Below the pieces are notes generated by a model. It was not told where the DNA came from. It worked only from the letters and a program-made list of their open reading frames with translations, and made no database searches. 33,751 nt of DNA, from contig DATJTX010000038.1 of assembly GCA_035502855.1 (NCBI GenBank), positions 1 to 33,751 of the forward strand, in the 5' to 3' direction. The stretch comes from Candidatus Baltobacteraceae bacterium (lineage in GTDB: Bacteria > Vulcanimicrobiota > Vulcanimicrobiia > Vulcanimicrobiales > Vulcanimicrobiaceae). A program made the position numbers and the translations under genes. Positions 6,493 through 33,751 of this stretch are shown here, piece by piece (the stretch's first letter is position 1; the number at the start of each line of letters is the position of its first letter).

Positions 6493-7176
6493 ATGCCCGA
6501 AACCAAGCCGCGCGTGGCCGTCATCGACGACGAACCTCGCATCCGCGAACTGCTCGAGCTGACCCTGGGCCACCACGGCTACGCGGTCCGCACCGCCGCC
6601 GACGGCCCGGCCGGCCTGGACCTCGTCAAGGACTGGGAGCCCGATTTGATCGTGCTCGACGTGATGATGCCGATGGTCAGCGGCATCGAGCTGCTGCCGA
6701 TGCTGCGCCGGGTCACCGACGCACCGGTGGTGATGCTCTCGGCCCGCGGCGAGGTCGAGACCAAAGTCGAGGGGCTGATGCACGGGGCCGACGATTACCT
6801 GAGCAAACCGTTCGAAATGCAGGAATTGATCGCGCACATCGACGCCAAGCTGCGCCGCCCGCACCTGGAAAACCGCAACATCATCGCCTACGACGACATC
6901 ACCGTCAACCTCGACGAGCACACGGTCGCGCGCGCCGGCAAGCGCATCGATCTCTCGCCGCTCGAGTACGATCTGCTGGTCACGCTGGTGCGCCGTCCGC
7001 GCCGCGTCTTCACCCGCGACGAGCTGCTCGATCTGGTTTGGGGAAACGAGAAAGACGTCGGGCAGAACGCGGTCGAACGCTACATCTCGTATCTGCGCGC
7101 AAAAATCGACGAGGGATTCGGGCGCCCGCTGATTCAGACCGTGCGCGGCGCGGGATACACGATCCGTGCCGACTGA
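6493..7176 (+). CDS. OmpR-family response regulator
   Basis: The 227-residue DNA-binding response regulator has a receiver domain (Asp12/Asp13 pocket, phosphoacceptor Asp56 in LIVLDVMMP, Lys in YLSKPF) and a C-terminal OmpR/PhoB winged helix (LSPLEYDLLVTLVRRP, RVFTRDELLDLVWG, ERYISYLRAKID, then VRGAGYTI). The open frame extends upstream, but ATG 6493 is the natural start of the receiver domain. No Shine-Dalgarno is seen in the short T-rich leader. The 3' end overlaps the histidine kinase gene by 11 bases, so the two form a standard two-component pair. Phosphorylation by that kinase should control DNA binding. The stimulus is unknown. Confidence 0.93.
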   Translation: MPETKPRVAVIDDEPRIRELLELTLGHHGYAVRTAADGPAGLDLVKDWEPDLIVLDVMMPMVSGIELLPMLRRVTDAPVVMLSARGEVETKVEGLMHGADDYLSKPFEMQELIAHIDAKLRRPHLENRNIIAYDDITVNLDEHTVARAGKRIDLSPLEYDLLVTLVRRPRRVFTRDELLDLVWGNEKDVGQNAVERYISYLRAKIDEGFGRPLIQTVRGAGYTIRAD

Positions 7177-8512
7177 ACCGACCTTTCGAAATTTCGCCCG
7201 CCGCATCACCCGCGGCTACGTCATCCTCGCGGTCGCACTGATCGCCCTTGTTGCCGGCGCTTCGTCGGCGTTCTTCATCGTCGGGTTCGCCACCACGTTC
7301 AATCAGAACATCGACGCGGCGCAAACGCGCGTCCAGCAGCGCGTCAACGAATACGCGGCGCGGGGCGAGAGCCTCGCGCAAATCGCGCCCAACGTGCTGG
7401 CGGAAGAACCCAACGCTCATTCGCGCATGCTCGTGCTCGATTCGCAGCACCGCGTGATCGCCGGCGCCTCGGCGCAATTGAACGATAGCGAGCGCGCGAT
7501 CGCGGGACTGCTCTTTTTGCGGCCTCGCTTCGTCGGCGTTCCGCACGGCGGCACGATCGTGCTCGAACCCGACGTCGGTGATTTTACCCATGCGCTCGTG
7601 CATTATTGGGAACGCATCGTTCCGATCGGCGTGCTGGCTGTGCTGATCGCGTGGCTCGCCGGGCGCGCCATCACCGGGCGCGCGCTGCGTCCGCTGCGCG
7701 AAGTCAACGACGCGCTCGGTTCGATCGCGCAGGGCGACTTCACGCCGAAGCTCCTGATCGAAAGCGACTCGAGCCTGCATGAACTCACCCAAACCTACAA
7801 CGAAGTCGCGCAGCGGCTGAACGTCGCCACCTACGAACGGCGCCGGCAAGAAGCCGAGCTGCGGCAGTTCATCGCCGATGCCGGGCACGAGCTGCGCACG
7901 CCGCTTACGATCTTCATGGGGTACCTCGATGCGCTGCGTTCGGGCGTCGTGCAAGACGGGGAGAGCGTGGGGCGCGTGCACGAGACGATGCTCGACGAGA
8001 GCCGCAAGATGCGCGCGATCATCGAGAAGTTGATCTTGCTCGCGCGGCTCGAACGCGAGGTGCCGCCGGTTACCGACCGGATCGATCTGAACTCGATCGC
8101 GGCGCGCGCGGTCGACGCGCTGCGCCCGCTCGCCGGCGAACGGCTGCGCTTCGCGGCCGACGGTGACGCCGCGGTTCTCGGCGACGACACCGAACTCTAC
8201 GAAGCGGTGAAGAACGTGGTCGAAAACGCGGTGCGTTACGCGCCGGCCTCCCCGGTCGACGTGCGCGTCGGCCGCGACGGCGCGACCGCGGTGCTGCAGG
8301 TCGCCGACCGCGGGCCGGGGATGCCGACGATCGACGTCGAGCACGCATTCGATCGGTTTTACCGCGGCAGCTCGCACGGCGAAATCGACGGTTCGGGCTT
8401 GGGCCTGGCCATCGCCAAACGCGCGGTCGAACGCATGGGCGGCTCGATCGCGCTCGATTCCCGCGTCGACGCGGGAACCACGGTCACCATGCGCTTTCCG
8501 GTGGAGGCATAA
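7166..8512 (+). CDS. Sensor histidine kinase
   Basis: The 448-residue membrane kinase has a first membrane helix at about 18-42, an extracytoplasmic sensor of about 105 residues, a second helix at about 150-172 and a HAMP linker to about 220. Next come the HisKA dimer/phosphotransfer domain with His241 in AGHELRTPLTIFMGY and a HATPase domain carrying the N box (NVVENAVRYAP), G1 (DRGPGMP) and G2 (GSGLGLAIAKR). All catalytic motifs are intact. The start is GTG 7166, inside the end of the partner regulator gene. The layout matches EnvZ/BaeS-type kinases, but the short periplasmic domain shows no recognisable ligand-binding motif. Confidence 0.92.
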   Translation: MPTEPTFRNFARRITRGYVILAVALIALVAGASSAFFIVGFATTFNQNIDAAQTRVQQRVNEYAARGESLAQIAPNVLAEEPNAHSRMLVLDSQHRVIAGASAQLNDSERAIAGLLFLRPRFVGVPHGGTIVLEPDVGDFTHALVHYWERIVPIGVLAVLIAWLAGRAITGRALRPLREVNDALGSIAQGDFTPKLLIESDSSLHELTQTYNEVAQRLNVATYERRRQEAELRQFIADAGHELRTPLTIFMGYLDALRSGVVQDGESVGRVHETMLDESRKMRAIIEKLILLARLEREVPPVTDRIDLNSIAARAVDALRPLAGERLRFAADGDAAVLGDDTELYEAVKNVVENAVRYAPASPVDVRVGRDGATAVLQVADRGPGMPTIDVEHAFDRFYRGSSHGEIDGSGLGLAIAKRAVERMGGSIALDSRVDAGTTVTMRFPVEA

Positions 8513-27223: not shown

Positions 27224-27328
27224 AGGGCTGGCATCCTTTATCGGAGGTACTCACTCCATGTTACGGCGTGACTCGGCTTCGATACAACGGGCGGAGCGTG
27301 CCGTCCGTAACCGTGTGCACGAGATGTG

Positions 27329-27371
27329 TATAACCGCAAGAACTTGCGAGTCCCTGTGGACGGCGACAGGG
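27329..27371 (+). promoter_or_regulatory. Structured leader and possible promoter of the min operon
   Basis: The 180-base gap between the M48 gene and minC holds a possible -10 box TATAAC (27329-27334) without a convincing -35, the palindrome CGCAAG-AA-CTTGCG (27335-27348) at the likely start site, and a hairpin CCCTGT/ACAGGG (27352-27371). These could serve regulation of minCDE. No single element is strong. Confidence 0.35.
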
Positions 27372-27403
27372 TCGCCCCCCGACCCCTCGGTAAAACGGGG
27401 CCA

Positions 27404-28162
27404 ATGTCGCTGATTCGGGGGCGGGGCCAGGGCCTCGAAATCCACCTCGCCGGTTGGGACTTTGACGCGGTGATCGCCGAGCTGACCGCTCGCCTTGGGG
27501 AGCGGCCCGGCTTCTACACGGGCACGCGAGCCGTCGTCGTTCAGGGCGAACCCGCGCTCTCGTCCGAGCAGGTGGCGCAGCTGGCGTCCGTGCTCGAGAC
27601 CGCCGGCATCGCGTTGAACGGGCTCGAGCAAGCGCCGGCGCCCGAAGAGCTCGCGCGACGCCGCGCGATGCGTCCCAAGCGCGAGCTCAAACTCTCGGAT
27701 TCGGCGCGCTCGCTCGTCGCCGACTTCGCCGGTGCGAGGGCCGACATCGCGCAGCGCCGCAAGCGGGCGAGCGAAGCGCCCGCGCCCGCAATGCCGATGC
27801 TGCAAGTCGCGCCGCCGCCCGGCACGCTCTATCACGTCGGTACGCTGCGCGGCGGGCAAGCGCTGCATCACGCCGGCAACATCGTCGTCGTCGGCGACGT
27901 GAATCCGGGAACCGAACTCGTCGCAACCGGCGACATCGTCGTCTTCGGCCGTTTGCTGGGCGTCGCGCACGCGGGCGCGCAAGGTGACGACGGTGCGAAA
28001 GTCTACGCGTTGCAATTGCAAGCGACGCAATTGCGCATCGCAACATGCATCGCGCTCGACGAGGATCACGCGCGCATGATGTCGGAACCGGAAGTAGCAT
28101 TCATTCGCGCGGGTCGCATTACGATCGCGCCGTTTTCCAAGGCAGCGGAGGTACCCGGTTAA
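27404..28162 (+). CDS. minC: Septum site-determining protein MinC
   Basis: The 252-residue division inhibitor blocks FtsZ polymerisation away from midcell when bound to MinD. The N-terminal domain starts at SLIRGRGQGLEIHLAGWDFDAVI. A linker with Ala/Pro and charged residues follows, then the C-terminal beta-helix with the classical MinC pattern GTLRGGQALHHAGNIVVVGDVNPG, ATGDIVVFGRLLGVAHAG and KVYALQLQATQLRIA. I place the start at ATG 27404. An upstream GTG (27326) would add 26 residues with no counterpart in the family and crossing the structured leader. The stop is one base before the minD ATG region (28164), showing operon structure with minD. Confidence 0.93.
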   Translation: MSLIRGRGQGLEIHLAGWDFDAVIAELTARLGERPGFYTGTRAVVVQGEPALSSEQVAQLASVLETAGIALNGLEQAPAPEELARRRAMRPKRELKLSDSARSLVADFAGARADIAQRRKRASEAPAPAMPMLQVAPPPGTLYHVGTLRGGQALHHAGNIVVVGDVNPGTELVATGDIVVFGRLLGVAHAGAQGDDGAKVYALQLQATQLRIATCIALDEDHARMMSEPEVAFIRAGRITIAPFSKAAEVPG

Positions 28163-28163
28163 C

Positions 28164-28955
28164 ATGGCAGGACGTCGCATCGTCGTGACCTCGGGAAAAG
28201 GTGGCGTCGGCAAGACGACGACCACGGCAAATCTGGGCGCCGCGCTTGCCAAGCGTGGAATGCGCGTGGTGCTCGTCGATGCCGACATCGGACTACGCAA
28301 TCTCGACCTGGTGCTCGGGCTCGAAAAGCGCATCGTCTTCGATTTGGTCGAAGTAGCCGAGGGCCGGTGTCAATTGCGCCAGGCGCTGATCAAGGACAAG
28401 CGCTTCGAATCGCTGGCGATTCTGCCGGCAGCGCAGACGCGCGACAAAGACGCGATCACCGAGACCCAGTTCGAGGCGATCATCGCCCAGGCCGCAGAGG
28501 GTGCCGATTACGTGCTGATCGACTGTCCGGCCGGCATCGAGGGCGGGTTTCGCAATGCGGTCGCCGGCGCGAAGGAGGCGATCGTGGTCACGACACCGGA
28601 GGTCGGCGCGATTCGCGACGCCGATCGCGTGGTCGGAAAGTTGAACGACCGAGCGCTGCCGATCCGCTTGATCGTCAATCGTCTGCGTCCCGAGATGGTG
28701 CGCACCGGCGATATGCTCTCGGTCGAGGACGTGTGCGAGATTCTCGCGATCGAATTGCTGGGGATCGTTCCCGACGATGCCGAGATCATCGACACGACCA
28801 ATCGCGGCGAACCGGTCGTGCTCGAACCGGCGGCGCGATTGGGCGTCATCTACGAGAAGATCGCGCGGCGGCTCGAAGGTGAGGTTGTGCCCTTCACCAG
28901 CTTCGACTCGCAAGGTTTCTTCGGCAAACTCTTCGGCGCACTCAAGGCGGGGTAG
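28164..28955 (+). CDS. minD: Septum site-determining ATPase MinD, first copy
   Basis: The 263-residue ParA/MinD-family ATPase has the deviant Walker A motif GKGGVGKT (residues 11-18), the VDADIGLRNLDLVLGLE segment, Walker B YVLIDCPAGI and a C-terminal membrane-targeting amphipathic helix (GFFGKLFGALKAG). All residues needed for ATP binding, dimerisation and membrane attachment appear intact. It follows minC by one base and is followed directly, without a gap, by a second complete MinD gene. With MinC and MinE it should form the pole-to-pole or gradient system that places the division site. Confidence 0.95.
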   Translation: MAGRRIVVTSGKGGVGKTTTTANLGAALAKRGMRVVLVDADIGLRNLDLVLGLEKRIVFDLVEVAEGRCQLRQALIKDKRFESLAILPAAQTRDKDAITETQFEAIIAQAAEGADYVLIDCPAGIEGGFRNAVAGAKEAIVVTTPEVGAIRDADRVVGKLNDRALPIRLIVNRLRPEMVRTGDMLSVEDVCEILAIELLGIVPDDAEIIDTTNRGEPVVLEPAARLGVIYEKIARRLEGEVVPFTSFDSQGFFGKLFGALKAG

Positions 28956-29801
28956 ATGGCTATGCACCAACCTATTCACGATGCGCTCGCCGCTCCGGCG
29001 GTAAAACTGGGACGCGCGATCGTCATTACGTCGGGCAAGGGCGGCGTCGGCAAGACGACGACCACCGCGAACTTGGGCACGGCGCTGGCCGCCCGCGGCG
29101 CCCGCGTCGCGCTGGTCGACGCCGACGTGGGTTTGCGCAATCTCGACATCGTGCTCGGCCTCGAGAGCCGCGTCAAGTATCACGTGCTCGACGTGCTCGA
29201 AGGCAAGGTGACGCTTGACGAGGCGCTCGTGCCCGACAAGCACAGCGAGACGCTGGTGCTGCTCGCCGCGGCGCAATCGCGCGAGAAGGAGGAAGTCGAG
29301 ACCGAACAGATGCGTGCGCTCATCGCGCGCCTGCGGGAGCGTTTCGATTTCGTGCTCATCGACTGTCCGGCCGGCATCGAGCTCGGCTTCAGAAACGCGA
29401 TCGTCGGCGCCGACGAGGCGATCGTGGTTTGCACGCCCGAGGTCTCGGCCGTGCGCGACGTCGATCGCGTGGTCGGCTTGCTCGGTAATCGGTTCAAGCC
29501 GCAGCTGATCATCAATCGGCTGCGCCCGCAACTGGTAAAGAAGGGCAAGATGCTCTCGGTCGAAGATGTCAACGCCATCCTGCGGCTGCCGCTGCTCGGG
29601 GTCATTGCCGACGAACCGGAGATCATCATCACCACCAACAAAGGCGAACCGCTTGCCCTGCGTCAGGACGGCGAAACGGCGAGCGCGTATCACGCGATCG
29701 CGGCGCGCGTCGCGGGCGAAGACGTTCCCGCTCCGGCTCCCCTCTTGAAAGAGTCGTTCGTGGACAAACTCGGCTCGTTCTTCGGAGGGCGGCGCGCATG
29801 A
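28956..29801 (+). CDS. minD: Septum site-determining ATPase MinD, second copy
   Basis: The 281-residue MinD paralogue is encoded immediately after the first. It has the deviant Walker A GKGGVGKT (residues 27-34), VDADVGLRNLDIVLGLE, FVLIDCPAGIELGFRNAI and a C-terminal amphipathic segment (FVDKLGSFFG). It carries a 16-18-residue N-terminal extension (MAMHQPIHDALAAPAVKL) absent from copy 1. AAGGCGGGG precedes the ATG. Both copies keep all catalytic features, so this is not a decayed duplicate; the middle regions differ considerably, pointing to an old duplication. The stop overlaps the minE start (ATGA), so copy 2 is coupled to MinE. Confidence 0.93.
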   Translation: MAMHQPIHDALAAPAVKLGRAIVITSGKGGVGKTTTTANLGTALAARGARVALVDADVGLRNLDIVLGLESRVKYHVLDVLEGKVTLDEALVPDKHSETLVLLAAAQSREKEEVETEQMRALIARLRERFDFVLIDCPAGIELGFRNAIVGADEAIVVCTPEVSAVRDVDRVVGLLGNRFKPQLIINRLRPQLVKKGKMLSVEDVNAILRLPLLGVIADEPEIIITTNKGEPLALRQDGETASAYHAIAARVAGEDVPAPAPLLKESFVDKLGSFFGGRRA

Positions 29802-30157
29802 TCGACTGGATCAAGAAATTTTTCGGCGCGCCCAGCTCGAGCTCGACCGCGAAGGAGCGGCTGCGGCTGGTGCTGATGACCGATCATCTGGCGCTCGGGC
29901 CCGACATCGTCGAGAACATGAAGCGCGACCTGATCGACGTGATCTCGCGTTACGTCGAAGTCGATCGCGACAAAGTCGAGGTGAGTTTCGAGCGCGAGGA
30001 TCGCGCGCTCGCGATGCTGGCCAACATTCCGATCGTCTCGGTAAGCCGTCCGAGCCCGCCCCCGGCTCCGCCGGATCCGCCGGCGAACGGCGGCGCTCCG
30101 CCGCGCCGGCGGCGGCGCAAGAAGCCGCCAGCGCAGAATCCCGCCGCGGCGCACTAA
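29798..30157 (+). CDS. minE: Division topological specificity factor MinE with Pro/Arg-rich tail
   Basis: The 119-residue MinE has an amphipathic membrane helix (MIDWIKKFFG), the MinD-activating segment AKERLRLVLMTDHLALGPDIVENMKRD and the topological specificity domain (DVISRYVEVDRDKVEVSFEREDRALAMLANIPI). MinE stimulates MinD ATPase activity and thereby drives Min patterning. The usual protein ends near residue 85. Here about 35 extra residues follow: a proline run (SPPPAPPDPP) and a strongly basic block (RRRRRKK). This tail could bind nucleic acid or membrane lipids, but that is speculation. Its TAA overlaps an ATG (30157) that opens the rodA remnant described next. Confidence 0.92.
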   Translation: MIDWIKKFFGAPSSSSTAKERLRLVLMTDHLALGPDIVENMKRDLIDVISRYVEVDRDKVEVSFEREDRALAMLANIPIVSVSRPSPPPAPPDPPANGGAPPRRRRRKKPPAQNPAAAH

Positions 30158-30202: not shown

Positions 30203-30868
30203 ATGCTGAATCCGAGTCTGTTTGAGGCGAGCGTGACCGGCGCGGTTTGTGCACATGAGCACGCGGTGCGGATTTTCGGTGACGACGATTTGCTCTATTT
30301 TCGCCACTTCTATAGCGAAAAAGCTTCGCTGAAAATGCTCGACGCGTTGTTGACGTCGGTTCCGTGGAAGCAAGAGTTATTAAAGATCTATGGGCGCAGC
30401 GTTCCAACGCCTCGACTGACGGCGTGGTACGGTGATCCCGGGGCCGCGTACACCTACTCTGGCCTGCGTAACGAGCCGAACCCGTGGACGCCGCTGTTGC
30501 TGGAAATGGTCGACGAGCTTTACTCGTTCGTTGGCGTTCGTTTCAACAGTGTCTTACTAAACCGCTATAGAAACGGTGACGACAGCCTTTCGTGGCACGC
30601 AGACGACGAACCCGAGCTCGGCGCGGAGCCGACGATCGCTTCGCTGAGTTTGGGTACGCCGCGCCTCTTCAAGCTTCGAAAGACGAGCGATCCAAAAGAC
30701 GAGGCTTCGCTGCGGCTGGAAAGTGGAAGCCTCCTTCTAATGCAGGGCCGTTCTCAGGCGAAGTACCGGCATAGCGTACCGAAGGAGAGAAAGGTCCGCG
30801 GTGAAAGAATAAACCTCACATTTCGGGTGGTTGCAACTGGAGGAACTGCGTCGGCGCCTATACCCTAA
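30203..30868 (+). CDS. alkB: AlkB-type 2-oxoglutarate/Fe(II) dioxygenase
   Basis: The 221-residue protein repairs alkylated nucleic acid by oxidative demethylation if it behaves like its family. The fold markers are PTPRLTAWYGDPG (nucleotide-recognition region), LLNRYRNGDDSLSWHADDEPELG with iron ligands His132 and Asp134, YRHSVP with His190, and ERINLTFR with Arg202/Arg208 for 2-oxoglutarate and catalysis. All are intact. The layout is closest to ALKBH2/3-like bacterial proteins of about 200 residues. GC content is visibly lower than in the min genes. It overlaps the next gene by 38 bases, so the two should be co-translated, and both sit between the rodA relic and rodA. Confidence 0.93.
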   Translation: MLNPSLFEASVTGAVCAHEHAVRIFGDDDLLYFRHFYSEKASLKMLDALLTSVPWKQELLKIYGRSVPTPRLTAWYGDPGAAYTYSGLRNEPNPWTPLLLEMVDELYSFVGVRFNSVLLNRYRNGDDSLSWHADDEPELGAEPTIASLSLGTPRLFKLRKTSDPKDEASLRLESGSLLLMQGRSQAKYRHSVPKERKVRGERINLTFRVVATGGTASAPIP

Positions 30869-31727
30869 TTTGCTGGCTCAACTGAGCCGGCATTTCGGTG
30901 TTGACCGAGCAGGGCTGTGCCTTAGGCTCAAACCGCACATCCCGACGATTCGCGCAGGGTTTGACGCCGCGGAAGTCGAGATCGCCTACGATGATCAAGA
31001 TGTCATCGCCACATACCTATTGCTTTACTACGCGAACTACACTGCTGCGGGCTGTGATGCGCTCGCGAGGATACAAGGGCTTCTTCCCGCACGTGATCTC
31101 TCCGCGGTGTTCTTCTGCGGCGGTTCCCTGCCGGAGTTACTCGCGACGGCATTCTCGATGAACAGGGCAAATGTCGGTCCTAAGGTGCTCAACGCGTCCG
31201 TCTTTGACCAATACGTGGAGGCCTGGGCCTGGACACATCAGATTACGACGGCGCTGGTCGGGCTGTTTGCGCCAGAGGTCGTCCTTGAACTTCAATCCGG
31301 CGCGGTGGACCTTCGTCGACGCGGTCAAGGCGTGCCGCAAACCGTGGCGAATGCGGACCTTGTCGTGTTTCAGCATTGCCTCAACGAGTTTGCCGATAGT
31401 CCCGGCGCGATCGAGTGCATCGAAAGAATCGGGCGCGCGGCGCCGCGCGACACGGTCTTTCTTTTTCTCGACCAGGGAAAATACCGAACCGTGACGCGGT
31501 CGATGCTGAGTATTCGCGAACGTTTTGTCGCTGCGGATTACCAGGTGCTGGAAGATTGTCATACGCCATACACGTACGAACCGCCTGACTTCTTTCTGCC
31601 CGATGAACTAAAGAGCCAATTCTTCGACGGCATTGCGGCGCGTGACGAACAGGGACGATGGACACCGGGTCACCGCCGCGCTCGCACGCTGAACCTGCGT
31701 GCTCTCTGCATGCGAAAGCGGAGATAG
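30831..31727 (+). CDS. Putative methyltransferase-like protein coupled to AlkB
   Basis: The 298-residue protein is not confidently recognised. Its core has the alternating pattern of a class I SAM-dependent methyltransferase: strand and glycine loop LSAVFFCGGSLPELLATAF (about 90-108), a second strand ending in Asp126 (VLNASVFDQYVEAW), VLELQSG, then ADLVVFQHCLNEFAD (175-189) and DTVFLFLDQG (207-216). The GxGxG loop is degenerate, so SAM binding needs proof. The start is uncertain: TTG 30831 lies within the end of alkB, and another TTG is at 30870. The stop directly abuts the rodA ATG. It shares the lower GC of alkB. Pairing with AlkB suggests a nucleic-acid or related methylation/demethylation function. 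Confidence 0.6.
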   Translation: MQLEELRRRLYPNLLAQLSRHFGVDRAGLCLRLKPHIPTIRAGFDAAEVEIAYDDQDVIATYLLLYYANYTAAGCDALARIQGLLPARDLSAVFFCGGSLPELLATAFSMNRANVGPKVLNASVFDQYVEAWAWTHQITTALVGLFAPEVVLELQSGAVDLRRRGQGVPQTVANADLVVFQHCLNEFADSPGAIECIERIGRAAPRDTVFLFLDQGKYRTVTRSMLSIRERFVAADYQVLEDCHTPYTYEPPDFFLPDELKSQFFDGIAARDEQGRWTPGHRRARTLNLRALCMRKRR

Positions 31728-32861
31728 ATGGCAGTTCTCGCACTCGGTATCGACACGCGGCGTTACGTTCGCAATTTCAACTGGCCGCTCGCGATCGCTC
31801 CCATCCTGATCTCGGCGATCGGGATCATGTGCATCCAGTCGGCCGATCTGCACGACCCCGATGCTTCGGGCGAATACAAAAAACAGATCCTCTACATCAT
31901 CATGGGCGTGCCGCTGATGCTCGGCTGCTCGTTGATCGACTATCGCAATTGGCGGCGCTTGGCGCCGGCGTTGTACGTCTTCAATTTGTTGCTGTTGATC
32001 TTCATTCTCCGCGGCGGTCATTCGGCAATGGGCGCGCAGCGTTGGATCTCGCTCGGGCCGCTCGGCACCTTCCAACCCTCCGAGCCCGCCAAACTGGTGC
32101 TGGCGATCTCGATCGCATTCGTGCTCTGCCGCAACACCTTCGACCGCATTCAGGATCTGTGGAAGCCGCTGCTCGCCGCGGCGATTCCCGCGCTGCTGAT
32201 CGTCAAGCAACCCGACCTCGGCACCGCGCTCGTGATCGGGGCGATCTTGACGGTGCAGCTGTTTTTCGGATTACCGAAGCTGGGCGATTTCGCGATCTAC
32301 GTGCTCGCGGTGCTGATCGCGGGAGCGGCCGCGGTCGGCACCAATGCCGTGCTCAAGCCGTTCCAAAAGGCGCGGCTGTTCGTCTTCCTCAATCCACATG
32401 CCGACCCGCAGGGCTCGGGCTACAATCTCAATCAGTCGAAGATCGCGGTCGGGAACGGCGAGTGGTTCGGCCGCGGTCTGCATCACGGCACGCAGACGCA
32501 GCTCAAGTTCGTGCCGTTTCATTCGCGCGATTTCATCTTCACCGTGCTGGCCGAGGAGTTCGGCTTCATCGGCGCGCTGGCGCTGATCGTACTCTACATC
32601 GCGCTCCTCTACGGTGGGATCCGCGCGATGATCGCCGCGCGCGATCGCTTCGGATTTTTGCTCGCCGCCGGAATCGTGGCGATGCTCTTCTTCCACATTC
32701 TCGTCAACATCGGCATGACGATCGGCATCATGCCGATCACCGGCATTCCGCTGCCCTTCATGTCGTACGGCGGGTCCGCGATCCTGACCGATTTTGCCGC
32801 CGTCGGCGTGCTGCTGAACATCTACTCGCAAAAAGACCGCGACGTCCTGGGCAACGCGTAG
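31728..32861 (+). CDS. rodA: Peptidoglycan glycosyltransferase RodA (SEDS family)
   Basis: The 377-residue, ten-helix SEDS protein polymerises lipid II during cell elongation. Seen here are GAQRWISLGPLGTFQPSEPAKL (residues 102-122), KQPDLGTALV (160-169), GYNLNQSKIAVGNGEWFGRGL and the catalytic Asp268 in VPFHSRDFIFTVLAEEFGF, plus the C-terminal ITGIPLPFMSYGGS. FtsW is less likely given the neighbouring context and the short C-terminus. The first ten residues (MAVLALGIDT) precede the RRYVR segment that is duplicated at 30166-30179, so the present start was probably rebuilt during insertion of the alkB module. CGGAGATAG gives a ribosome binding site. Confidence 0.94.
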   Translation: MAVLALGIDTRRYVRNFNWPLAIAPILISAIGIMCIQSADLHDPDASGEYKKQILYIIMGVPLMLGCSLIDYRNWRRLAPALYVFNLLLLIFILRGGHSAMGAQRWISLGPLGTFQPSEPAKLVLAISIAFVLCRNTFDRIQDLWKPLLAAAIPALLIVKQPDLGTALVIGAILTVQLFFGLPKLGDFAIYVLAVLIAGAAAVGTNAVLKPFQKARLFVFLNPHADPQGSGYNLNQSKIAVGNGEWFGRGLHHGTQTQLKFVPFHSRDFIFTVLAEEFGFIGALALIVLYIALLYGGIRAMIAARDRFGFLLAAGIVAMLFFHILVNIGMTIGIMPITGIPLPFMSYGGSAILTDFAAVGVLLNIYSQKDRDVLGNA

Positions 32862-32931: not shown

Positions 32932-32996
32932 GAGGCTATGGCTCTTGCCTAGTCGCCCGAGGGGATCGCGCAAGCGGTGCCCCTTGGTTATTTATT
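32932..32996 (+). ncRNA. Candidate small RNA of about 65 nt
   Basis: The region runs from the predicted start site of the consensus promoter to the U-rich end of a strong intrinsic terminator. It contains a small AGGC/GCCT stem (32933-32950) and then the terminator hairpin. No coding frame longer than four codons exists on this strand. It is convergent with the DUF3800 gene and overlaps its last codons. It is not a family I recognise. Alternatively the terminator simply ends rodA transcription and the promoter is a relic. Confidence 0.5.
32957..32996 (+). terminator. Intrinsic terminator with GCAA tetraloop
   Basis: CCGAGGGG pairs with CCCCTTGG (one G-U). Past a single bulged G the stem continues with five more pairs closed by a GCAA tetraloop, followed by TTATTTATT. 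It can end both rodA read-through and the candidate small RNA. Confidence 0.75.
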
Positions 32997-33751
32997 GGCC
33001 TCATCCGGAAGCATGCACTCGTATGATTCGTCCCATGGGATCACTTTCAACCCGAGGATGGAGTTTGCGGTAACGCGGCCGGTGCATAGCTTGCGCTGAA
33101 AGATGCCCCAGCGCGGAGGATCGCTCATTGGATCCAGGACTTTGTCCGCACACGGTCGAGCGAGAAGATCGGCAAGCTGCATTCCGCTGCTATTAGAATC
33201 CTTCGTGATAAACCTGAGCCCCGGCAGAAACTGATGGCGAAAATACGCAGCGGAAATATAAGCCGTGCCATCGAGGAAAAGCCGCGCGAATTCATATTGC
33301 AGGAGGGCGTCGCCTAAAGGATCTCGCGCCTCCAGCACCAGCCTACCCTGTGCGCCGCCGAAATGCGCCTGCAAGGACAGGGCGATCCGTTCCGCCATAA
33401 AGCTAAGCATCATAACGTAAGCGTGATTCGGAAGGTGCTTATGGGGAAGACTTTCATTAGGGGCGTCCGTGCCCCATTTCTCTAGGTATTTGTCGCGTTG
33501 AAGAACGCAGCAGATGGCATTGAACGGCAAGCCGGAAATAATATCGTCGAGCTGGAGAAGCGCTGTCTTTTGCTTAGTTTTGTCACCGCCGCACCAAAAA
33601 GAACCATCCAGATCGTGTCCCAGGCCGTGGTGTATGAGAGGACTATCCTGGCCGCATAAATGAGAGCGGCCACCGTGGCTTTCGGCGAAGGTTGTTTTTG
33701 CAGAAAACAATCGACACGAAAGGAAACCACGATGACCAAGCCTAGTATGGC
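32988..33751 (-). CDS. DUF3800-like protein, 5' end beyond the window
   Basis: The frame is open to the right edge, so the N-terminus is missing or begins at ATG 33710 (240 residues). Family signs are modest: an IHHGLGHDLDG-type segment where DUF3800 proteins have a conserved His near the start of the core, LLQLDDIISGLPFNAICCVLQRDKYLEKWG, and the C-terminal SSGMQLADLLARPCADK with the characteristic QLADLLA. DUF3800 is predicted to have an RNase H-like fold and is common in accessory and defence-associated regions; the typical N-terminal DESG motif would lie outside the window. Base composition is clearly lower in GC than in rodA, consistent with acquired DNA. Confidence is moderate because the diagnostic N-terminus cannot be seen. 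Confidence 0.65.
   Translation of the reverse strand, partial: HTRLGHRGFLSCRLFSAKTTFAESHGGRSHLCGQDSPLIHHGLGHDLDGSFWCGGDKTKQKTALLQLDDIISGLPFNAICCVLQRDKYLEKWGTDAPNESLPHKHLPNHAYVMMLSFMAERIALSLQAHFGGAQGRLVLEARDPLGDALLQYEFARLFLDGTAYISAAYFRHQFLPGLRFITKDSNSSGMQLADLLARPCADKVLDPMSDPPRWGIFQRKLCTGRVTANSILGLKVIPWDESYECMLPDEANK

Follow-up and report, generated by a model that had tools for sequence, protein, structure and literature searches.

AlkB proteins are commonly seen as repair enzymes that work by themselves. The locus described here raises the question of why an AlkB gene should overlap the start of a second gene, whose product of 298 residues (referred to as X) resembles a methyltransferase, and whether the two proteins act together. 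Both genes lie on the forward strand of a 33,751-nt stretch of DNA from a Candidatus Baltobacteraceae bacterium, which is called the window below. The initial annotation had read them as a possible modify-and-erase pair, or as a repair or defence cassette, of a form not known to have been described before.

The first gene (30203-30868, plus strand, ATG start) encodes an ALKBH2/3-like Fe(II)/2-oxoglutarate dioxygenase of 221 aa. In a Pfam profile search it matched PF13532 with an E-value of 3.8e-38 and 132.1 bits (curated cut-off 31.2), and a sequence search of the PDB returned human ALKBH3 (E 2.8e-39) and ALKBH2 as its nearest solved relatives. The iron ligands His132, Asp134 and His190 are identical in all 88 aligned AlkB sequences, and the 2-oxoglutarate/substrate arginines Arg202 and Arg208 are found in 87 of the 88, the remaining one having a gap. 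The complete catalytic set that had been read from the single sequence is thus confirmed by both the profile match and the alignment, and the window AlkB is predicted to be an ordinary oxidative demethylase of the ALKBH2/3 type. By sequence it belongs with ALKBH2, ALKBH3 and the bacterial group-2 AlkB proteins, which are usually encoded by stand-alone genes, whereas here AlkB is linked to X. Most bacterial AlkB proteins that have been assayed repair DNA (PMC4051686), while ALKBH3 acts as a demethylase on the m1A and m3C of RNA, and FTO on m3U (PMC11431407). The CARF_2OG family of PADLOC was considered for this protein and rejected, since the match is confined to positions 184-350 of the 353-position profile, corresponding to the dioxygenase part alone, and the N-terminal CARF domain is absent from the 221-aa AlkB.

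The second reading frame (30831-31727, plus strand) opens with a putative TTG start and encodes a predicted class I SAM-methyltransferase fold with an N-terminal helical part. Both frames were recovered as first annotated, and they overlap by 38 nt (30831-30868, plus strand), provided that TTG 30831 is the true start of X; in genome G122, a member of the same bacterial family but of another genus, a 47-nt overlap is found at the same place. No good Shine-Dalgarno sequence was found upstream of TTG 30831. Homology nevertheless favours a start near this position, because a start at the next in-frame candidate, TTG 30870, would leave out the conserved N-terminal 'LY' motif of the X family (window residues 10-11), and TTG 30831 is a plausible choice. 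Neither open reading frame is a chance frame, since AlkB and X recur, adjacent to each other, in unrelated genomes.

Searches of Pfam, NCBIfam, PHROGs, PADLOC and the PDB sequences gave no match for window X; tblastn with window X detected no relative among phages, and a single X pattern detected none among the viral contigs. The family could be detected only via tblastn against plasmids, followed by an alignment-based scan. Alignment of 29 members (alignment A3) revealed 11 invariant columns (Y53, Y62, Y66, G98, E102, D126, W132, Q181, C183, N185 and E186), which cover the loop that follows strand 1, an acidic residue beyond strand 2 (D126, invariant in 29/29) and the motif QNCLNE (Q-N-C-x-N-E) after strand 4, that is, the predicted SAM site. 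The loop after strand 1 reads G-x-G in most of the family, C96-G97-G98 in the window and A-A-G in G122, in agreement with the degenerate SAM loop noted at the outset. Window X deviates from the family at two near-invariant sites, with C96 in place of Gly and H182 in place of the Asn of QNCLNE, and its branch in the X tree is very long (3.5 changes per column). Given these features, the window copy may be weak or changed in function. Elsewhere the family has diverged to about 20% identity with G98, D126 and QNCLNE near-constant.

A structural model of X was obtained with AlphaFold2 from 27 aligned sequences, the two plasmid-record rows of the alignment being excluded, and it is confident (pLDDT 88.7, pTM 0.90). 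Foldseek returned class I SAM-methyltransferases for this model, and in a VIA-align comparison 995 of 1000 chains reached a Z-score of at least 8, the rows shown being methyltransferases. The methyltransferase likeness that the initial annotation had read from a Rossmann-like strand pattern is thereby upheld, X being modelled as a class I methyltransferase fold with seven Rossmann-like strands. Ranks 1-10 of the VIA-align comparison are all mitoribosomal small-subunit assembly intermediates from human, yeast and trypanosome, with Z-scores of 18.4-21.4, rmsd values of 3.2-3.7 and 243-261 residues superposed, N-terminal helices included, and the next match is an unrelated methyltransferase at Z 16.7. 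The matching chains in these ten rows we take to be Rsm22/METTL17 (PF09243).

The likeness to Rsm22/METTL17 covers the fold of the core and the N-terminal helical part, about 250 of the 298 residues of X being superposable, but it does not extend to the other features of that family. Rsm22 is defined by a Cys/His metal cluster, A-P-C-H-x-x-C-P plus further Cys (PMC8171064); X has a single invariant cysteine, C183, so the zinc or Fe-S cluster is missing. Missing too is the C-terminal OB domain, X ending with the methyltransferase core at residue 298, and X, unlike Rsm22 and METTL17, is paired with AlkB. PF09243 is absent among the families matched at E <= 1 by the 29 X members, and hhalign of the X family against four bacterial Rsm22 proteins gave a probability of 13% with an E-value of 0.002, which is only suggestive of kinship in sequence. 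Membership of Rsm22 was rejected on these grounds, namely the lack of a profile match, of the metal cluster and of the OB domain. Yeast Rsm22 methylates mt-tRNA in vitro (PMC8171064); METTL17 is regarded as chiefly an architectural assembly factor (PMC9892005), and the fold of X is therefore no proof of catalysis.

A second, weak kinship by sequence points to Methyltransf_34 (PF11312), which was matched over the core by nine of the 29 X proteins (best E 8e-4). The same profile was matched by all four members of a sister methyltransferase clade (L048, L050, L051 and L056), at an E-value of about 2e-5 and 23.3-24.7 bits; the matches of X proteins and sister clade alike lie below the Pfam gathering score of 26 bits. 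The genes of the sister clade stand beside AlkB in the reverse order, X-AlkB, and encode the active-site motif NFLLSE; the clade is closer to Methyltransf_34 than X is, and it aligns with X at an hhalign probability of 96.8% (E 2.9e-10). Methyltransf_34 is known chiefly from eukaryotic rRNA methylation and presumably includes yeast Bmt6. The m3U2843 residue of 25S rRNA is made by Bmt6 (PMC5199042). Taken together, the model and these comparisons would make X an unannotated methyltransferase family whose fold is akin to that of METTL17, a mitochondrial ribosome factor.

Relatives of X were collected by tblastn of plasmids, by an alignment-based scan of 85,000 genomes and by profile searches of whole genomes; these searches are unbiased towards AlkB because the queries consisted of X only. 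Members of the family were found in Cyanobacteriota, Bacteroidota, Acidobacteriota, Pseudomonadota and Candidatus Poribacteria, as well as in the window's own phylum. X has AlkB as its immediate neighbour on the same strand in 35 of 44 non-redundant loci. The distance is mostly no more than about 60 nt (the extremes being a 47-nt overlap and a gap of 241 nt), and the two reading frames overlap in five loci. This rules out X as a chance neighbour of AlkB, and the recurrence of the pair in unrelated genomes, which the first reading had predicted, extends over at least six phyla. That reading had also held that tight coupling implies joint action: the 38-nt overlap by itself proves little, and it is the co-occurrence across phyla that lends the claim support. 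Among the nine loci without an adjacent AlkB, seven have X beside a DUF1848 gene (one of them at a contig edge), and two (L057 and L058) are probably not family members, being weak matches that fit generic methyltransferase models. No fused AlkB-methyltransferase open reading frame was seen among the loci surveyed. The adjacency is well supported, and AlkB and X very probably work as a pair.

The evolutionary histories of the two proteins run in parallel. Distances between AlkB proteins correlate with those between X proteins (Mantel r 0.78, with 0 of 2000 permutations as high), and a single clade of the X tree has members from Acidobacteriota, Bacteroidota, Pseudomonadota and Poribacteria (99/93); the correlation and this four-phylum clade support co-transfer. 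The distribution of X is patchy, with 14 of 292 cyanobacterial genomes and two of 149 genomes of the window's own phylum carrying it. AlkB is present in 88 of 147 genomes of that phylum (60%) and in 40 of 161 cyanobacterial genomes (25%), and because it is common without X, it must have other work. X, in turn, is rarely encountered unless AlkB or DUF1848 adjoins it, whereas AlkB is frequently found where X is absent; X therefore leans on AlkB. In one cyanobacterium (L115, about 1385-1467) X stops after 26 codons, and the adjoining AlkB is intact and nearly identical to that of L040. In two further loci (L031, 5920-6812, and L049) X is split between two reading frames beside an intact AlkB, owing to a frameshift, decay or an assembly error.

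Several branches of the family carry additional domains. X has N-terminal membrane segments and a coiled coil in L015-L019, a C-terminal coiled coil and membrane tail in L022, L024, L026, L027 and L046 (the tail being assigned by hydropathy scan only), TPR repeats in L010 and an Hsp70-like domain in three Bacteroidota loci (L029, L030 and L032). In these last three, the genes cluster as a type IIG restriction-methylase, AlkB, X-Hsp70, a UvrD-like helicase, an unknown 640-aa protein and a DruE-like helicase, an arrangement that looks like an undescribed defence island. Several copies of the pair are plasmid-borne and several loci lie near defence genes; on the plasmids pSYSA and pSYLA, a few kilobases separate AlkB-X from a type III-B CRISPR locus, and in Picosynechococcus the pair adjoins DUF499 and DUF1156 genes. 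The cyanobacterial loci are flanked mostly by ordinary genes. The pair on pSYSA of Synechocystis PCC 6803 offers a model system and is, like that of Planktothrix, a canonical member of the family.

The recurrent second neighbour, DUF1848, was found beside X in L006, L012, L013, L015, L017, L018, L040, L043, L054, L055 and L058, in convergent orientation in cyanobacteria and either upstream or downstream of X in Bacteroidota. It has an invariant C-x3-C-x2-C motif and matches a defence-associated model of PADLOC. Its structural model is of moderate quality (pLDDT 70), and the best matches are radical-SAM enzymes at Z-scores of 8-9, near background; DUF1848 may be radical-SAM-like, mainly on account of the cysteine motif. 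In some X loci it may replace AlkB, and in genome G155, where X stands beside DUF1848, no AlkB was detectable anywhere. No paper on DUF1848 was found in the literature search. A UvrD/SF1-helicase-like gene adjoins X in L054, L055 and L057, with no AlkB within the flanks examined.

As to what the pair does, the reading that we hold to, tentatively and as no more than a reasonable conjecture, is that of a cassette of two enzymes with a common nucleic acid substrate, probably RNA, to which X adds and from which AlkB removes a methyl group. It builds on the AlkB residues, the fold of X and the adjacency with correlated divergence; the opposed activities and the substrate we infer. Briefly, the two genes would be translationally coupled, and X would act as a SAM-dependent methyltransferase that places a methyl group on a base of a nucleic acid, most likely RNA. 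The mark would be of a kind that AlkB can remove, such as an N3-methyl-pyrimidine or N1-methyladenine, and AlkB would strip it from the same molecule, so that the pair sets or edits a methylation state and X depends on AlkB as its eraser. The preference for RNA comes from the closest folds and families (Rsm22 and Methyltransf_34), which are RNA methyltransferases or ribosome factors, and from the ability of ALKBH3- and FTO-type enzymes to remove m1A, m3C and m3U from RNA. The patchy spread, the plasmid and island settings and the Hsp70, TPR and membrane-anchor fusions suggest a role in stress or defence that differs from host to host.

An AlkB-methyltransferase system of two genes is, as the initial annotation had supposed, without a description in the literature searched, which takes in few subscription papers. 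The kinds of enzyme are known, while the two-gene combination, the X family and the fusions of X appear to be undescribed. The presence of a methyltransferase beside AlkB in at least six phyla, and in both gene orders, points to bacterial AlkB proteins acting on methylation that is programmed and not accidental, and the pair provides a testable handle on the role of bacterial ALKBH2/3-like enzymes. It also links AlkB and the X family to DUF1848 and to defence-like islands. The Rsm22/METTL17 fold, the membrane-anchor, Hsp70 and TPR fusions, the DUF1848 partner and the resident AlkB of the min-rodA operon (see below) had been absent from the initial annotation.

Several other explanations of the pairing were considered. 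One, rather unlikely but to be taken seriously, is an alkylation-repair cassette in which X methylates nothing itself and, having kept its fold for the binding of SAM or RNA, serves as an adaptor, directing AlkB or DUF1848 to the ribosome or to nucleic acid that has been damaged. METTL17 sets a precedent for this fold as a ribosome-assembly scaffold (PMC9892005), DNA repair is what most assayed bacterial AlkB proteins perform (PMC4051686), and the SAM loop of window X is degenerate. In Mucilaginibacter (L025), moreover, a gene for methylpurine-DNA glycosylase, another alkylation-repair enzyme, follows AlkB-X after 9 nt (6880-7482). This glycosylase link is a single instance, however, and the near-invariance of G98, D126 and QNCLNE in proteins that share some 20% identity elsewhere is easier to explain for an active enzyme. 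Also unlikely is a conflict module, in which X would methylate self or invader harmfully with AlkB as the antidote, or the two would form an anti-phage defence pair. Such a module would accord with the position of AlkB 5' of X at close spacing in most loci, with the rarity of X where neither AlkB nor DUF1848 adjoins it when AlkB alone is common, and with the patchy distribution. Plasmid carriage (including the CRISPR-bearing pSYSA), the restriction-methylase and helicase clusters of the three Bacteroidota loci and the PADLOC match of DUF1848 fit it as well. The cyanobacterial locus in which X is lost and AlkB intact is what one would expect if AlkB were an antidote, yet it fits the loss of any dispensable helper equally. 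Against a conflict module stand the cell-division and cell-shape operon in which the window pair resides in place of a defence island, the mostly ordinary cyanobacterial neighbours and the position of X outside every PADLOC model. DarT/DarG is a modify-and-erase toxin-antitoxin pair, and the side-by-side placing of writer and eraser is reminiscent of AlkB-X; this is an analogy only, the chemistry of DarT/DarG being ADP-ribosylation, unlike that of AlkB-X.

A bolder version of the write-and-erase reading, which we regard as doubtful, would make AlkB-X a mobile and so far undescribed class of toxin-antitoxin or defence switch: X would methylate a position on the Watson-Crick face of RNA, AlkB or DUF1848 would reverse this, marks such as m3U, m1A and m3C would block or label the RNA, and the membrane-anchored, Hsp70-fused and TPR-fused forms would be sensor versions. 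Sequential rather than opposed action is very unlikely. In this scheme X would finish a group that contains a methyl on a base of tRNA or rRNA, and AlkB would then hydroxylate this base to a stable product in place of demethylating it, as in ALKBH8, where a methyltransferase and an AlkB domain act in turn on one tRNA base with substrate channelling (PMC4051686). ALKBH8 resembles the proposed pair in joining an AlkB to a class I methyltransferase for work on a common nucleic acid, but it does so in one protein with a Trm9-like domain, whereas here two genes are involved, X belongs to another branch of methyltransferases and is not Trm9-like, the RRM and the zinc finger are absent, and AlkB is closest to ALKBH2/3. 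Finally, and for the window genome only, X might be a decaying passenger beside a resident AlkB, the pairing being incidental; this is highly improbable. The window copy is indeed off-consensus at two near-invariant sites and on a long branch, and in 17 loci of the same bacterial family minE-AlkB-rodA is found without X. An intact X, however, occupies the same site and overlaps AlkB in two genera, and in each of the two genomes the GC3 of X is unusual in the same way as that of AlkB.

The proposed write-and-erase cassette is set, in the window, within an operon of the order MinC - MinD paralogue - MinD - MinE - AlkB - X - RodA, all on the plus strand. MinC (27326-28162; PF03775, E 2e-27) is the first gene, followed by the MinD paralogue (28164-28955; PF01656/PF10609), which is 56% identical to the downstream MinD, by MinD itself (28956-29801), which has MinD/ParA family matches and adjoins MinE in related genomes, and by MinE (29798-30157; PF03776, E 2.4e-21). 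Next after X comes a RodA/FtsW-family protein (31728-32861; PF01098, E 1.9e-94). The X-less loci of the window's family (L079, L080 and L082-L096) usually read minD-minE-AlkB-rodA, one of them ending at the end of its contig before rodA, and X was found at the min-rodA site in only two genomes, the window's and G122. AlkB is thus a regular resident of this operon in the family, and X a rare addition. GC3 is 0.63-0.65 for AlkB and X, compared with 0.83-0.93 for the min and rodA neighbours, in both genomes, and this shared low GC3 would suit an arrival of X together with a foreign AlkB. In the AlkB tree, the window AlkB groups with the resident min-operon AlkB proteins and that of G122 with another; a joint clade of the two is not rejected (AU p 0.3). 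Either X was there early and often lost, or the pair has spread between relatives at the min-rodA site. The family thus keeps an alkylation-repair gene inside a cell-division and cell-shape operon. Two minor observations concern the same region: the operon, as minC-minD-minD-minE, holds two tandem MinD-type ATPases (28164-28955 and 28956-29801), and a weakly DUF3800-like open reading frame (E 0.009, below the curated score) lies 3' of rodA on the minus strand (32988-33710).
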